Of a stretch of DNA of 64,000 nt, positions 17,742-42,824 are shown one piece after another. Source of the DNA: Massilibacillus massiliensis (lineage in GTDB: Bacteria; Bacillota; Negativicutes; FLKF01); the NCBI RefSeq assembly GCF_900086705.1, contig NZ_LT575483.1:311166-375165 (forward strand), given 5' to 3'. Position 1 is the stretch's first letter, and every line of letters begins with the position of its first letter. Below the pieces are notes generated by a model. It saw only the letters and a list, made by a program, of their open reading frames with translations. It did not search any database and was not told the DNA's origin. The position numbers and the translations under genes are program-made.

Positions 17742-17930
17742 TTATAACCTTTCGACGCGTAGTGGCTCTTGATAATTATCAAAATGTATTTTATTCTCAT
17801 AAGGATTAATAAATAGTAATTGACTAATTAATTTAGGTAAAACATAAAATAAAATAATCGCTAACAAAAAAGTTACACAAATAAATTTAATCATTTTTTT
17901 CAACTTTTTTTGATGGAAAATGACTAGCAT
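17742..17930 (-). CDS. small membrane protein, YqzK/DUF4227-like by position
   Basis: A 62-residue protein. A Lys-rich N-terminus (HQKKLKKMIKF) precedes one long membrane helix (about residues 17-38), then a short tail ending NYQEPLRVERL. The tail resembles the Y-x-x-P-x-G-x-A-V-K-V end of DUF4227/YqzK proteins, and the position between spoIIM and xerD is the same as B. subtilis yqzK. ATG 17930 has GAGGGTGA about 5 nt upstream. Its function is unknown in any organism I know of. The assignment rests mainly on synteny. Confidence 0.6.
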   Translation of the reverse strand: MLVIFHQKKLKKMIKFICVTFLLAIILFYVLPKLISQLLFINPYENKIHFDNYQEPLRVERL

Positions 17931-17996
17931 TCTTATCACCCTCACTAACGATAAATAATAAGATAAATATGCATCCTATGTTTATTTATTGATATT

Positions 17997-18623
17997 CTAG
18001 AATAAACTTGCTACAAATTTCATAAATACAGGGGATACATATACTTCGAGCAATGTGCTAATCAACATGCCTAAAGATAATATAACGCAAACAATACTAT
18101 AATTAATCGAATTTGCTAATAATTTAGAATTGATTTGTTTCTTCTTATTAATAATCTGCATAGAAAAATTAATTGAAAAAATACTAATTAAAATAAGTAT
18201 CGGAATCGCTAAAAAATTATGTGGTAATATAGCAACGAGCGCAAACAACAATCCTTTAAATACAAACTCATTCACCAAGATTCCCACAGTAAATCCAATA
18301 ATAAATCCTCGCGTGAAAACAATAAACAAAATAAATGGAATTCCAATTATAGTAAATCCTAAAATCCAAATAACGAGAACAAATTTTAAATTATTTCCCA
18401 AAACTGTTAAAAACAAATCAAGACTATATTCTGTATGCGCTGCAATATCTTGAAAAAAAATATTTAGATATCCTGCTAGCTCGCTTTTTTGGCCCTCTGG
18501 TAGAATTTTTATTGCCATTGCTCCAAATACAACACCAATACTAAAAATTAATATTACGAAAAAAAACTTTACAATATTATTTTTTATGTATTCTTTTAAC
18601 CCTTGCCGAAAATATGCCAGCAT
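17997..18623 (-). CDS. spoIIM: stage II sporulation protein M
   Basis: A 208-residue polytopic membrane protein of the SpoIIDMP complex, which drives septal thinning and forespore engulfment from the mother cell. It shows FFFVILIFSIGVVFGAMAI, NNLKFVLVIWILGFTIIGIP and VAILPHNFLAIPILILISIF, typical of DUF95/SpoIIM. ATG 18623 opens MLAYFRQGLKEYIKNN. Its ribosome site GGAGG is also the 3' arm of a terminator-like hairpin (18631-18670). Upstream in-frame starts back to 18665 lie inside that hairpin. It follows nudF. Confidence 0.92.
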   Translation of the reverse strand: MLAYFRQGLKEYIKNNIVKFFFVILIFSIGVVFGAMAIKILPEGQKSELAGYLNIFFQDIAAHTEYSLDLFLTVLGNNLKFVLVIWILGFTIIGIPFILFIVFTRGFIIGFTVGILVNEFVFKGLLFALVAILPHNFLAIPILILISIFSINFSMQIINKKKQINSKLLANSINYSIVCVILSLGMLISTLLEVYVSPVFMKFVASLF

Positions 18624-18670
18624 AAAAAATCCTCCCTGCATTATAACCTTGTTAACTCTATGCAAGGAGG
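18624..18670 (-). promoter_or_regulatory. terminator-like hairpin containing the spoIIM ribosome-binding site
   Basis: On the minus strand CCTCCTTGCAT (18660-18670) can pair over 11 bp, with one G-U, to ATGCAGGGAGG (18631-18641). A run of six T residues follows and ends at the spoIIM ATG. The stem starts 7 nt after the nudF stop. It could terminate nudF transcription, hide the spoIIM GGAGG, or do both. Confidence 0.65.
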
Positions 18671-18677
18671 TTTTTAA

Positions 18678-19226
18678 TTATACCATTTTGTCCTTTCTAT
18701 TTAACGTCATCAAAATCGCAACTAAACTTTTAGCATCGTAGATTTGTTCTTCCTGAATCATTTTCTTTATTTCTTCTACTTCATATTTTTCAACATGCAG
18801 AAACTCATCTTCATCTAAACATTGCTCGCCTTCTATTAATCCTTCTGCAACATAAAGATGAATTACTTCATTCGAAAATGCCATCGTAGTTCCAATTGTC
18901 GTTAACTTTTTAATTGTTTTTGGGGTATATCCAGTCTCTTCTTTTAATTCGCGAAGCGCACACTTATCAGGATCTTCACCTTTATCTAATTTTCCTGCCG
19001 GAATTTCTAACGTAATTTTTCCTACAGGGTACCGAAATTGTTTTACCATAACGATTCTTCCATCTTCCAAAATAGGCACAACAGCAACTGCGCCTGGATG
19101 TTGGATCCACTCTCGAACTGCCTCTTTTCCATTTGGTAATAACACTGTATCTTTACGAACTTTTAATAATTGCCCATCAAAAACATGTTCTTTGCTAATC
19201 AACGTTTCTTCTAAATCTTTACTCAT
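18678..19226 (-). CDS. nudF: ADP-ribose pyrophosphatase (Nudix hydrolase NudF)
   Basis: A 182-residue Nudix hydrolase that probably splits ADP-ribose into AMP and ribose-5-phosphate. The full Nudix box is at residues 78-100, with G78, E84, R92, E93, E96, E97 and G99 in place. VKQFRYPVGKITLEIPAG just before it is the ADP-ribose-type signature. ATG 19226 has GGAGG 10 nt upstream. It precedes spoIIM as in B. subtilis. The exact substrate is inferred from the family. Confidence 0.9.
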   Translation of the reverse strand: MSKDLEETLISKEHVFDGQLLKVRKDTVLLPNGKEAVREWIQHPGAVAVVPILEDGRIVMVKQFRYPVGKITLEIPAGKLDKGEDPDKCALRELKEETGYTPKTIKKLTTIGTTMAFSNEVIHLYVAEGLIEGEQCLDEDEFLHVEKYEVEEIKKMIQEEQIYDAKSLVAILMTLNRKDKMV

Positions 19227-19326
19227 AAAACGATTTCCTCCAATATACATACTAAAAATGCAATAAAATTTAAATTAATTTTAGTTTATCATATTTATAT
19301 AAAATAATCCTATTGCAGCAAAAATA

Positions 19327-19355
19327 AAAATCCCGTCAAAAGATGACGGGATTTT
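19327..19355 (-). terminator. terminator of spo0A
   Basis: A 12-bp perfect stem (AAAATCCCGTCA at 19327-19338 with TGACGGGATTTT at 19344-19355) and a 5-nt loop, T-rich after it on the minus strand. It lies 3 bp past the spo0A stop. Confidence 0.9.
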
Positions 19356-19358
19356 ATT

Positions 19359-20129
19359 CTAAGCACGCATTTCCATTCTAAGTTTATCTGCAATCATTGC
19401 CATAAATTCTGAATTTGTAGGCTTACCTTTTTCTAATTTTATTGTATAACCAAATATTTTATTGATCATATCCATATTACCTCTTCCCCAAGCAACCTCA
19501 ATCGCATGACGGATCGCTCTTTCTACTCTACTTGGTGTTGTAGAATATTTTTCAGCAATTAATGGATACAACACTTTCGTTACAGCACCTAAAAGATCAA
19601 CTTCATTTACGATCATCATAATTGCATCCCGTAAGTACTGATATCCTTTTATATGTGCCGGAATACCTATTTCTCTAATAATGTTCGTAACTTCAATATC
19701 AATTGGATGTGCTTTAATCGCCTGAGCAACTAATGGACGTTGCTCTGTAATAGTTCCTGCTAATTGTCTAATTCGACTTAATAAAACTTCCATATTGAAT
19801 GGTTTTAAAACGTAATAATCAGCACCCAACTCAACGACTCTCTGTGTAATACTTTCTTGTCCAAAAGCTGTCAACATAATAATTTTAGGTCGTTTCAATG
19901 GTGAAACATTGATATGTTCCAACACACCAATTCCATCAAGATGAGGCATGATAATATCTAAAATTATAACATCAGGCTCCTCATTCTCAATAATCTCCAA
20001 AATTTCTTCACCATTGTAGGCTACTCCCACTACCTCAATATCTGGTTGTTCAGAAAGATACTCTTGAATAATCCCCACAAATTCCCGATTGTCATCTGCT
20101 ACAGCAACACGAATTTTTTCTTTTATCAC
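19359..20129 (-). CDS. spo0A: sporulation master regulator Spo0A
   Basis: A 256-residue response regulator that, when phosphorylated, starts sporulation. The receiver domain has D12-D13, the phospho-acceptor D58 ([13 protein letters not shown]), T87 and K109 (VLKPFN). The DNA-binding domain has [20 protein letters not shown], the strongly conserved Spo0A recognition region. The start is GTG at 20129, with GAGAGGA upstream. Upstream lies a sigma-H-type promoter with a Spo0A box over its -10. Its place after spoIVB and recN is the usual one in spore formers. Confidence 0.97.
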
Positions 20130-37289: not shown

Positions 37290-38284
37290 AAAAACTCCTC
37301 TTTTTCGTTTGTTTTTGAAAATAAATGATGCGTTTTTTTCACATCAATAATTTCCTGTACAGAGCCTATCTTAGGCTGATTTGTCAATACAATATATCGC
37401 TCAAAATATTTTTCTTCTATTAGTTGCTTGACATATGGACGATTTTTCACATCTTCTAAATTCTTTCCATGTACACTCGTAATAACAGAAACACCTGCAT
37501 GCAAAGCTTCATTTAGTGCAATCACATCCTCTTCTCTGCCAAGTTCGTCTGTAACAATTACATCCGGTGCCATAGATCGAATGAGCATAAGAATTCCAGT
37601 CGCTTTGGGGCATCCATCCAAAACATCCACGCAATAACCTATATCTAATGTAGGAATTCCATTTTTACAAGCCGTAATTTCTGAACGCTCATCCACGACA
37701 CCAACTTGTACACCACTAAAATTCATTTCCATCCTACTGAAAGACCTCACAATATCGCGTAATAAGGTCGTTTTGCCACAGCGTGGTGGTGCAATAATTA
37801 AAGTACTAAAAATATGCTGGTTTCGATCAATCAAAAAACGCATGATATCCTTTGCACAATTTTTTACTTCTCTAGAAATACGTATATTTATAGAACTTAT
37901 ATTCTTAATCGCCTTCAATTTTCCATCATTTAAAATGGCCTGTCCCGCCAATCCAACTCTATGACCGCCTTCTAATGTAATATAACCCATTCTCAATTCC
38001 TGTTCCAGCGCATAGAAAGAATTTTTCGTCATCGCTTGTATGGTGTTAGAAATATCATTTTTATTACAAATATAACCTGTTTTTAAATCGCCGTTTACAA
38101 CACCGTCATCCTGAATTGTATACATACGATCAGGTAAAACAAGCAGAAAAGGCTGATTTACACGAAGTCTTATCTCAATCACTTGATTCATAAGCAAAAA
38201 ATCGACTTGTTTCAATAAATGAATCATATGAAGTGGCAAATATGGATAAATATCATTTCTTATTTTCTCAATTGTATTTACCAT
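37280..38284 (-). CDS. spoIIIAA: stage III sporulation protein AA (ATPase)
   Basis: A 334-residue AAA-type ATPase related to secretion ATPases, thought to power the SpoIIIA complex. Walker A is APPRCGKT (165-172), with Ala in place of the usual first Gly. Walker B is DVIVTDELG, and VGVVDERSEITAC lies between. GGHRVGLAGQAI is the conserved N-domain stretch. ATG 38284 has AGGTGG upstream. First gene of the operon, preceded by the terminator of the zinc-ribbon gene. I could not find a good sigma-E promoter. Confidence 0.95.
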   Translation of the reverse strand: MVNTIEKIRNDIYPYLPLHMIHLLKQVDFLLMNQVIEIRLRVNQPFLLVLPDRMYTIQDDGVVNGDLKTGYICNKNDISNTIQAMTKNSFYALEQELRMGYITLEGGHRVGLAGQAILNDGKLKAIKNISSINIRISREVKNCAKDIMRFLIDRNQHIFSTLIIAPPRCGKTTLLRDIVRSFSRMEMNFSGVQVGVVDERSEITACKNGIPTLDIGYCVDVLDGCPKATGILMLIRSMAPDVIVTDELGREEDVIALNEALHAGVSVITSVHGKNLEDVKNRPYVKQLIEEKYFERYIVLTNQPKIGSVQEIIDVKKTHHLFSKTNEKEEFLCC

Positions 38285-41180: not shown

Positions 41181-42824
41181 TTACAAGATTTTTTCTATAA
41201 TTTCTTTAAAGATTGGAGCCGCAACATCTCCGCCCGACATCCCATCTTCAACAAAAATAGCAACAACATATTTGGGTTCCTCTATTGGCGAAAAACCAAC
41301 ATACCATGCATGATTAATCCCTTTTCCATCCGTTCCTTTTCTTCCCGTTTCTGCAGAACCAGTTTTCCCTGCCGATCCTCCATTTTCAATCCAAGCGGCT
41401 TGTCCTGTTCCGTATTGATTAACTGCAATCATCATTTTTTTAATTTTTTCAGCAGTTTCTAAAGAAAATATACGTTTTGCTTCCTTTTTGTCACGCATAT
41501 TTATTTTTTCGCCATTTTCATCGATTATAGCGCTTACTAAAACCGGATTTACTTTTATTCCATAGTTCACAATCGTTGATACAAATGCCGCCATTTGTAT
41601 TGGGGTCACTTCACATTCGCCTTGTCCAATGGATAAATTTGCCAACTCTCCCCGATAAATATTATCCTGTGCTGGTAAATTCCCCTGCATTTCATTATAA
41701 AAACTTAAACTCGTTCTTTCCCCGAAACCAATCTTTTCTGCAAAATTCACCAAGTTTTTCATTCCCATACGCAGGCCAACTTCAATTAATACCGGATTAC
41801 TAGAATAAGCAATAGCATCTTGAAACGTTATTTTTCTAGTTCCACTTTTATAATCCCATCGTCTAAATTTTGTACCGTCAACATCAATAAACCCTTTATC
41901 AATAAAAGATTCGTTCAATGAAACCAAGTTTTGCTCTAGTGCAGCAGCCGCTACAACCAATTTAAATACTGATCCCGGTGGATATGCACTAATTGCTCTA
42001 TTTAACAATGCTCCGTTTTCACCGTTTAAATACTGCTCTAAATGTGTAGCATCAAAATTAGGTCTTGACACCATCGCTAAAACATCTCCAGTTTTTGGTT
42101 CCATAACAATAACTGCACCTTTTGTTGCATATTTATCAAAAGCCTGTTCTACGCTTCTTTGTATTGCATTATCCATAGTTAAAATTAAATCAAATTTTTC
42201 ATCTCGTTTTTCTAAATTGAATTTTCTATAACTGAGTCCCGGAATTAAATTACTTCTTGCATCAATTACAGCTGCCAAGTACTCTTTACTGCCAAACCTT
42301 AATTTTTCATCATACATCGCTTCTAAGCCACTCATACCTCGATTGTCTATTAAATTACAATAGCCAATGACATGACTTGCCACATCACTATAACGATTCG
42401 TAGATTCATTCACTAATACACCATGAATTTCCTTACTTTTAATTGCAAGCGCTGCTTTCTTTGGCACATTCTCCGCAAATTTTATCGGCTTCACAGCCTT
42501 ATCCAGACTGGCATATACGTTTGATTCCGGAATACCGCTATACTTTGCCAAGGCAGCGATCGAATCATACTTATCTTTTAATTGGCTGGGAAATATTGTA
42601 ACATCGTAGTGTTTATTTCGATTCGTCATGGCATTTAGATTACGATCAAAGATTTCTCCTCGTTCATGTCGAAGTTCAACTTCCTGAACTCTGCTAAATA
42701 ACCCCGATATCGCCAAATCTTTGCCCATAATGATTTGCAAATAAAACAATCGTATAAAAATTACAACACCCAAAACAGAGAACATAAGCAATATATAGTA
42801 AATCCGCTTTACTGAAAAAGCCAT
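41181..42824 (-). CDS. class B penicillin-binding protein (transpeptidase)
   Basis: A 547-residue membrane-anchored transpeptidase that cross-links peptidoglycan. One N-terminal helix (about 8-30) is followed by a dimerisation domain and the transpeptidase motifs SVFK (285-288), SSN (341-343) and KTG (487-489). It resembles FtsI/PbpA/SpoVD types but lacks the C-terminal PASTA repeats, so it could serve division, elongation or spore cortex synthesis. ATG 42824 has GAGGTG upstream and lies in the arm of a hairpin. It follows the DUF4911 gene. Confidence 0.88.
   Translation of the reverse strand: MAFSVKRIYYILLMFSVLGVVIFIRLFYLQIIMGKDLAISGLFSRVQEVELRHERGEIFDRNLNAMTNRNKHYDVTIFPSQLKDKYDSIAALAKYSGIPESNVYASLDKAVKPIKFAENVPKKAALAIKSKEIHGVLVNESTNRYSDVASHVIGYCNLIDNRGMSGLEAMYDEKLRFGSKEYLAAVIDARSNLIPGLSYRKFNLEKRDEKFDLILTMDNAIQRSVEQAFDKYATKGAVIVMEPKTGDVLAMVSRPNFDATHLEQYLNGENGALLNRAISAYPPGSVFKLVVAAAALEQNLVSLNESFIDKGFIDVDGTKFRRWDYKSGTRKITFQDAIAYSSNPVLIEVGLRMGMKNLVNFAEKIGFGERTSLSFYNEMQGNLPAQDNIYRGELANLSIGQGECEVTPIQMAAFVSTIVNYGIKVNPVLVSAIIDENGEKINMRDKKEAKRIFSLETAEKIKKMMIAVNQYGTGQAAWIENGGSAGKTGSAETGRKGTDGKGINHAWYVGFSPIEEPKYVVAIFVEDGMSGGDVAAPIFKEIIEKIL

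Follow-up and report, generated by a model that had tools for sequence, protein, structure and literature searches.

The spoIIM locus of Massilibacillus massiliensis

The window analyzed here is a stretch of 64,000 nucleotides from M. massiliensis, and the features described below all lie on its minus strand. Open reading frames and family searches give the gene order spoIVB, spo0A, a NUDIX gene (nudF), spoIIM, a small ORF, xerD and spoIIAA-spoIIAB-sigF, in which the names of the last three genes were assigned by eye, without a family search. spoIIM (17997..18623, with its ATG at 18623-18621) encodes a stage II sporulation protein M of 208 amino acids, which scores 158.3 bits against TIGR02831 (cut-off 100.2) and also matches PF01944. 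The gene directly upstream (18678..19229, alternative start at 19250) encodes a NUDIX hydrolase, as indicated by a PF00293 domain in its product (E 1.4e-19). A search of the same product against NCBIfam returned no match over cut-off, and the label nudF is the name given to this NUDIX gene in the original prediction. The gene ends with a TAA codon at 18680-18678, leaving a gap of 54 nt between the end of nudF at 18678 and the start of spoIIM at 18623.

A stable hairpin covers the spoIIM ribosome-binding site

The gap between the two genes contains the hairpin that had been predicted there: an 11-bp stem following the nudF stop codon, with the spoIIM Shine-Dalgarno (SD) sequence in its 3' arm and a T run leading to the ATG. 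From sequence and folding, the 5' arm is CCTCCTTGCAT (18670-18660) and the 3' arm is ATGCAGGGAGG (18641-18631), the latter holding the SD sequence GGGAGG (18636-18631). One of the 11 pairs is a G-U pair and the loop spans 18 nt. The 3' arm is followed by an A and six T (18630-18624), which form the spacer between SD and start codon and possibly the U tract of a terminator. The RNA from 18624 to 18670 folds with -17.9 kcal/mol (z -4.06), a stability that none of 200 dinucleotide shuffles equaled, and the opposite strand folds less well (101 nt, -15.8, z -1.59). A covariance-model search of positions 17900-19400 against Rfam found nothing at the hairpin and two sub-threshold matches at 19320-19374.

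In a transcript reading through from nudF, opening the region from the SD to the AUG of spoIIM is computed to cost 16.9 kcal/mol, compared to a mean of 5.8 kcal/mol when the upstream sequence is dinucleotide-shuffled (z 6.7). The value for a predicted short RNA starting within the hairpin is 4.7 kcal/mol. A separate comparison of opening energies in long and short RNAs that had no shuffle control is biased by length and was not counted as evidence. At the level of modeled folds, these values agree with the architecture originally proposed, in which read-through RNA would hide the SD and RNA starting inside the hairpin would not. Under slightly different settings, the opening energy of spoIIM ranked highest among 60 gene starts in the window, which were called by a crude rule such that some are miscalled; 7 of the 60, miscalled starts among them, reached p<=0.05 against shuffled upstream sequence. 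The second-highest opening energy (18.5, p 0.005) belongs to a start called at 42824 (about 42764-42824, minus strand), where the arms are GCCATAC and GTATGGC.

In its local appearance the element also resembles an intrinsic terminator of nudF, having a stem of 11 pairs that is flanked 5' by a run of A and followed by A and TTTTTT, and a position directly after the gene. On this alternative reading, polymerase would stop in the T run, the 3' arm would merely happen to be the SD of the next gene, and masking of that SD would be a by-product. The loop of 18 nt is unlike that of an intrinsic terminator, and a simple terminator scan, which accepts loops of 3-8 nt only, misses it for that reason.

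A sigma-E-type promoter overlaps the hairpin

To place the hairpin in an evolutionary context we examined leaders from other Negativicutes, in a comparison set containing no other genome from the genus, family or order of the window. SpoIIM matches were found in 56 of 380 genomes of the class, and the 110 nt before spoIIM were read in 50 loci, leaving out 5 weak matches (G187, G189, G229, G373 and G374) as well as G094. A sigma-E-type promoter of the form GGTATAAA-N13-GCATACATT precedes spoIIM, as best match, in 48 of the 50. Two loci were excluded from folding, leaving a set of 48: G095, with no convincing promoter, and G303 (locus L094), which carries about 60 nt of extra sequence between promoter and SD compared with other genomes of family f25. 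The spacing is 13 nt in 46 of the 48 leaders and 12 nt in two, and the -10 element begins 35-52 nt before the spoIIM start codon. The script used always returns a best match, and agreement across the 48 ranges from 5 to 8 of 8 positions for the -35 element and from 6 to 12 of 12 for the extended -10, being weakest in G288, G289, G292, G294 and G318.

The corresponding sequence in the window, GGTATAAT-N13-GCATAGAGT at 18684-18655, scores 22.2 bits with a matrix built on 24 other genera (the window and its nearest relative were excluded), and the next best place on either strand of the 64 kb scores 12.7. The -35 element GGTATAAT (18677..18684) covers the nudF stop codon. It is followed by a 13-nt spacer (18664..18676) containing the anti-SD sequence CCTCCTT, and by the -10 element GCATAGAGT (18655..18663), in which CATAGAGT deviates from the class consensus CATACATT. 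The 5' arm of the hairpin thus consists of the end of the spacer and the beginning of the -10 element, and shuffling the spacer weakens the pairing at spoIIM (p 0.002). The promoter has features of sigma-E promoters, namely ATA in the -35 element, a CATA-type -10 and fixed spacing; ATA is described as a mark of the sigma-E -35 element in the sections available of a published account (PMC3789822). Judging from the distance to the -10 element (5-7 nt after it), transcription would start at 18648..18650. Since this predicted start falls in the hairpin loop, the short RNA would lack the 5' arm; in its predicted fold the SD is unpaired and the AUG lies partly within a weak stem (-5.0 kcal/mol). The original prediction would have been undermined if the only spoIIM start site lay far upstream, and the sequence instead places a candidate promoter at the hairpin itself, with a predicted start.

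The loop also contains TATAAT, which we rejected as a promoter element as it is not conserved, the nearest relative (G089) having TTAATGAT there. Upstream of the -35 element lies a GGACA box (18689..18693), which we take to resemble the SpoIIID consensus, and GGACA occurs at most 16 nt upstream of the -35 element in 33 of the 48 Negativicutes spoIIM leaders (relatives among L082-L131). The B. subtilis spoIIM gene, by contrast, is placed outside SpoIIID control in the part of the source available (PMC517825). Elsewhere in the window, the spoIIIAA leader (38240-38284, minus strand) carries CATATCTATGTAAAGAAAGG, a block also present in front of spoIIIAA in many of the fetched Negativicutes loci.

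Promoter-to-start pairing recurs in relatives with different letters

The original prediction looked to conservation of the stem in relatives, and two of these retain it. The nearest relative (G089, 85% SpoIIM identity) and a member of another family (G081) keep both stem and T run; across these two and the window 95.6% of 45 cells are paired, two cells being unpaired. In most other relatives the individual letters of the stem are not retained: those of the arm differ, and pairing between promoter region and start region recurs with other letters. For example, the spacer is linked to the AUG and codons 2-5 by as many as 14 pairs in nine f25 genomes (91.3% of cells paired), and in G083, G088 and G290 the -10 element itself joins a pairing over the start codon. 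Compensatory changes, the proposed sign of such conservation, were looked for and did not emerge. In the three sequences with the window-type stem, three pairs vary on one side and none of 15 on both, and among the nine f25 sequences both partners differ in 1 of 14 pairs, a result that does not surpass that of shuffles. The stems of different families do not descend from a single homologous stem, so that the usual counting of covariation is not decisive here.

These comparisons also weigh on the terminator alternative. In its favor, the T run persists in the two relatives whose stem is closest to that of the window, and the leaders with five T (G000, the genome of the window, G089, G081 and, outside the class, L198) all have a significant hairpin. 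At least five T between SD and start codon are, however, found in 3 of 48 Negativicutes leaders and in 1 of 69 others, whereas excess pairing is widespread, and several lineages have the 3' arm over the AUG and early codons without any T run. The coincidence of the 3' arm with the SD of the next gene is likewise unlike an intrinsic terminator. We therefore regard a primary role as a nudF terminator as rather unlikely. Because the T run is restricted to 4 of 117 leaders, the shared role is more likely a translation lock than a terminator, and in the window lineage the T run perhaps gives the stem a second function, the termination of some nudF transcripts.

Excess pairing is a property of spoIIM leaders as a group

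Given that the letters of the arms change between families, we assessed pairing by comparison with shuffled and swapped sequences rather than by alignment. In addition to the 48 Negativicutes leaders, a second set was drawn from a search of the phylum in which 308 of 398 genomes match; the 69 loci used, from other classes, comprise 29 that were fetched in addition to that of the window and a further 40 taken from among the matches listed, in most cases one from each family. Of these, the 52 with a promoter score of at least 9.5 entered the upstream-swap, upstream-frame, sense/antisense and helix tests. The measure of accessibility was widened from the SD alone to the AUG and early codons after SD-only folds had been inspected, and the second set was chosen before its leaders were seen, but these were read by eye before testing.

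For accessibility of the SD alone, against shuffled spacers, the signal of the loci taken together was weak, with p<=0.05 in 6 of 48 (KS p 0.10). With the energy of pairing between pre-start and post-start sequence, shuffling the spacer gave p<=0.05 in 19 of 48 spoIIM loci vs 0 of 57 neighboring genes (p 4.7e-5 for genera vs neighboring genes). When opening energy was compared to that obtained with the 60 nt upstream shuffled, 23 of 48 loci and 16 of 28 genera were significant, as were 3 of 57 neighboring genes (p 5.9e-8). The same test identified 25 of 69 loci in the phylum set; when the start was held fixed, the count was 26 of 69, compared to 7 of 84 for other genes (p 1.5e-4). Taken singly, 25 of the 48 Negativicutes loci and 44 of the 69 other loci are not significant against shuffled upstream sequence, and the layout is accordingly found in many, not all, spore-forming relatives and is not universal.

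Exchanging upstream pieces between loci led to a similar result. In 28 Negativicutes genera and 52 of the 69 phylum loci, spoIIM starts combined with their own upstreams averaged 11.94 kcal/mol vs 8.67 kcal/mol with permuted ones, a mean not reached in any of 20000 permutations, nor when these were confined to GC strata; individually, 3 of 28 Negativicutes and 19 of 52 phylum pieces ranked in the top 5%. A count of Watson-Crick helices that run for 10 or more pairs without a break, which uses no energy model, found them in 8 of 80 loci with their own upstream vs 0.5% of swapped combinations, and 0 of 10000 GC-stratified swaps reached the own mean. Swapping between families by pair number gave 13.9 vs 8.9 (Wilcoxon 5e-5 over 18 families), with a median at or below 0.05 in only 4 of the 18; the window's own upstream ranks at 0.149.

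It could be argued that a C-rich spacer and a G-rich SD simply pair by chance, as SD sequences are G-rich and many loci lack a hairpin. The shuffles, however, preserve composition, the GC-stratified swaps never reach the own mean in either test, and other genes show little under the same tests. Chance pairing is therefore unlikely as an explanation for the group, though possible for single loci, and overall we give it very little credence.

The signal was also compared with that at other sporulation genes, spoIID, spoIVA and spoIIIAA, which we presume to be sigma-E-controlled as in B. subtilis. In the same 28 genomes, spoIIM was significant in 16 of 28 loci, spoIID in 4 of 20, spoIVA in 3 of 23 and spoIIIAA in 0 of 7, the denominators being the control loci that passed filters (20 of 27, 23 of 26 and 7 of 28, respectively); spoIIIAA and spoIVA are weak controls, as most spoIIIAA starts were miscalled and many spoIVA loci had no clear promoter. 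The spoIID leaders (L260-L286) show a mild excess of the same pairing (mean z 0.92), so that the promoter-lock design may not necessarily be confined to spoIIM.

A further alternative is that the inverted repeat acts at the level of DNA, as an operator for a sporulation regulator, and not as RNA structure. A GGACA box adjoins the promoter in 33 of 48 leaders, and GerR represses spoIIM in B. subtilis according to the accessible part of one study (PMC517825). Antisense folding also departs from shuffles, in 28 of 80 loci at p<=0.05, which is expected because Watson-Crick pairs are shared by both strands. Sense folding departs more, in 36 of 80 loci and with a mean z of -1.90 vs -1.53 (p 0.0045), and this moderately favors RNA over a DNA operator. 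Moreover, the arms have no common letters between families and grip either SD or AUG, unlike the sites of one regulator. A DNA operator consequently appears highly improbable to us.

Upstream genes and read-through

The promoter of spoIIM is often found close behind the stop codon of the preceding gene: in 37 of 50 loci, a frame that stays open for 80 codons or more terminates 48-97 nt short of the spoIIM start codon, a few of these being overlapping frames. The upstream gene differs among relatives, its stop lying 48 to 476 nt from spoIIM. Where it is not nudF it looks like TIGR00375, judging from a single locus that was searched (E 1.3e-76, which falls short of the curated cut-off). Such a TIGR00375-like gene lies between nudF and spoIIM in many Negativicutes (L084-L131) and is absent from the window (18678-18700, minus strand) and from G089, in both of which nudF directly adjoins the promoter.

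Among the phylum loci, the lock was seen in 19 of 35 with an upstream frame ending no more than 100 nt away and in 3 of 17 without one (p 0.002), with genes taken as open frames of at least 70 codons that are not verified genes, and with about 500 nt of upstream sequence spanned in 40 of the 69 loci. Within Negativicutes the corresponding proportions, 20 of 39 and 3 of 9, do not differ significantly (p 0.18). The more frequent occurrence of the lock behind a near upstream frame fits a role against read-through.

The proximity of nudF raises the alternative of translational coupling, in which ribosomes finishing nudF would open the stem and allow some SpoIIM to be made. With only 7 nt between the nudF stop and the 5' arm, the arm could conceivably be within reach of a ribosome terminating there. 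The stop and the ATG are, however, 54 nt apart in the window, and in relatives both the upstream gene and the distance of its stop differ. We consider such coupling highly improbable.

Relation to known systems

The closest precedent is provided by the late genes of phage T4, and the spoIIM element is predicted to work like them without being a member of that group. In the case of I-TevI, early and middle RNAs hide the ribosome-binding site and the RNA from the late promoter lacks the hiding arm; other genes with such hairpins include e and soc, according to the portions available of the source (PMC2988022). The computed features of spoIIM that parallel this arrangement are a stable stem hiding the ribosome-binding site on upstream transcripts only (16.9 vs 5.8 kcal/mol) and a promoter at the hairpin, from which a short RNA without the arm and with an unpaired SD is predicted. 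Unlike the T4 genes, spoIIM is a cellular sporulation gene with a bacterial sigma-E-type promoter instead of a phage late promoter; its arm is formed by the promoter's own spacer and -10 element; and both the letters of the arm and its target, SD or AUG, change between families.

Another comparison is with icaR of Staphylococcus aureus, where a C-rich anti-RBS motif in the 3'UTR pairs with the ribosome-binding site and inhibits initiation (PMC7821165, available sections). Both systems have a C-rich anti-RBS sequence in the mRNA; the arm of icaR belongs to the mRNA's own 3'UTR, whereas that of spoIIM comes from the upstream promoter region, which the productive mRNA would not include. In B. subtilis, spoIIM is a mother-cell gene activated by sigma-E and later repressed by GerR, and in the text available no RNA element is mentioned in its regulation (PMC517825). 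Activation by sigma-E would be alike in the window, judging by the type of promoter. A search of openly licensed papers, which is weak evidence of absence, found no printed account of such a spoIIM element.

A promoter that may double as a translation lock

Taken together, these observations lead us to consider it probable that the spoIIM promoter doubles as a lock, in the style of the T4 late genes, that keeps read-through mRNA from making SpoIIM. The DNA between the -35 and -10 elements is complementary to the spoIIM ribosome-binding site. Polymerase running on from nudF would copy the promoter into RNA, and the arm would fold onto the SD and block initiation of SpoIIM. In the mother cell, sigma-E polymerase would, by homology, start at the promoter, giving an RNA with its 5' end in the loop, without the arm and with a free SD. 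The benefit may be that SpoIIM, an engulfment protein, is kept out of growing cells.

We extend this reading to the phylum more tentatively, with the balance of our judgment slightly against it: a recurrent design in which selection keeps the spacer (or the -10 element) complementary to the gene's own start region, with the letters and the SD or AUG target rewired by family, so that only mother-cell polymerase makes translatable spoIIM mRNA despite the position of the gene within transcripts of other genes. If this is true, the promoter spacer would bear a second, RNA-level message deciding which spoIIM transcripts are translatable. It would also supply a rule by which to look for further cases among sporulation or phage genes with promoters inside operons, and would explain how the gene for a late, cell-type-specific membrane protein stays silent right behind a co-directional gene in many genomes.
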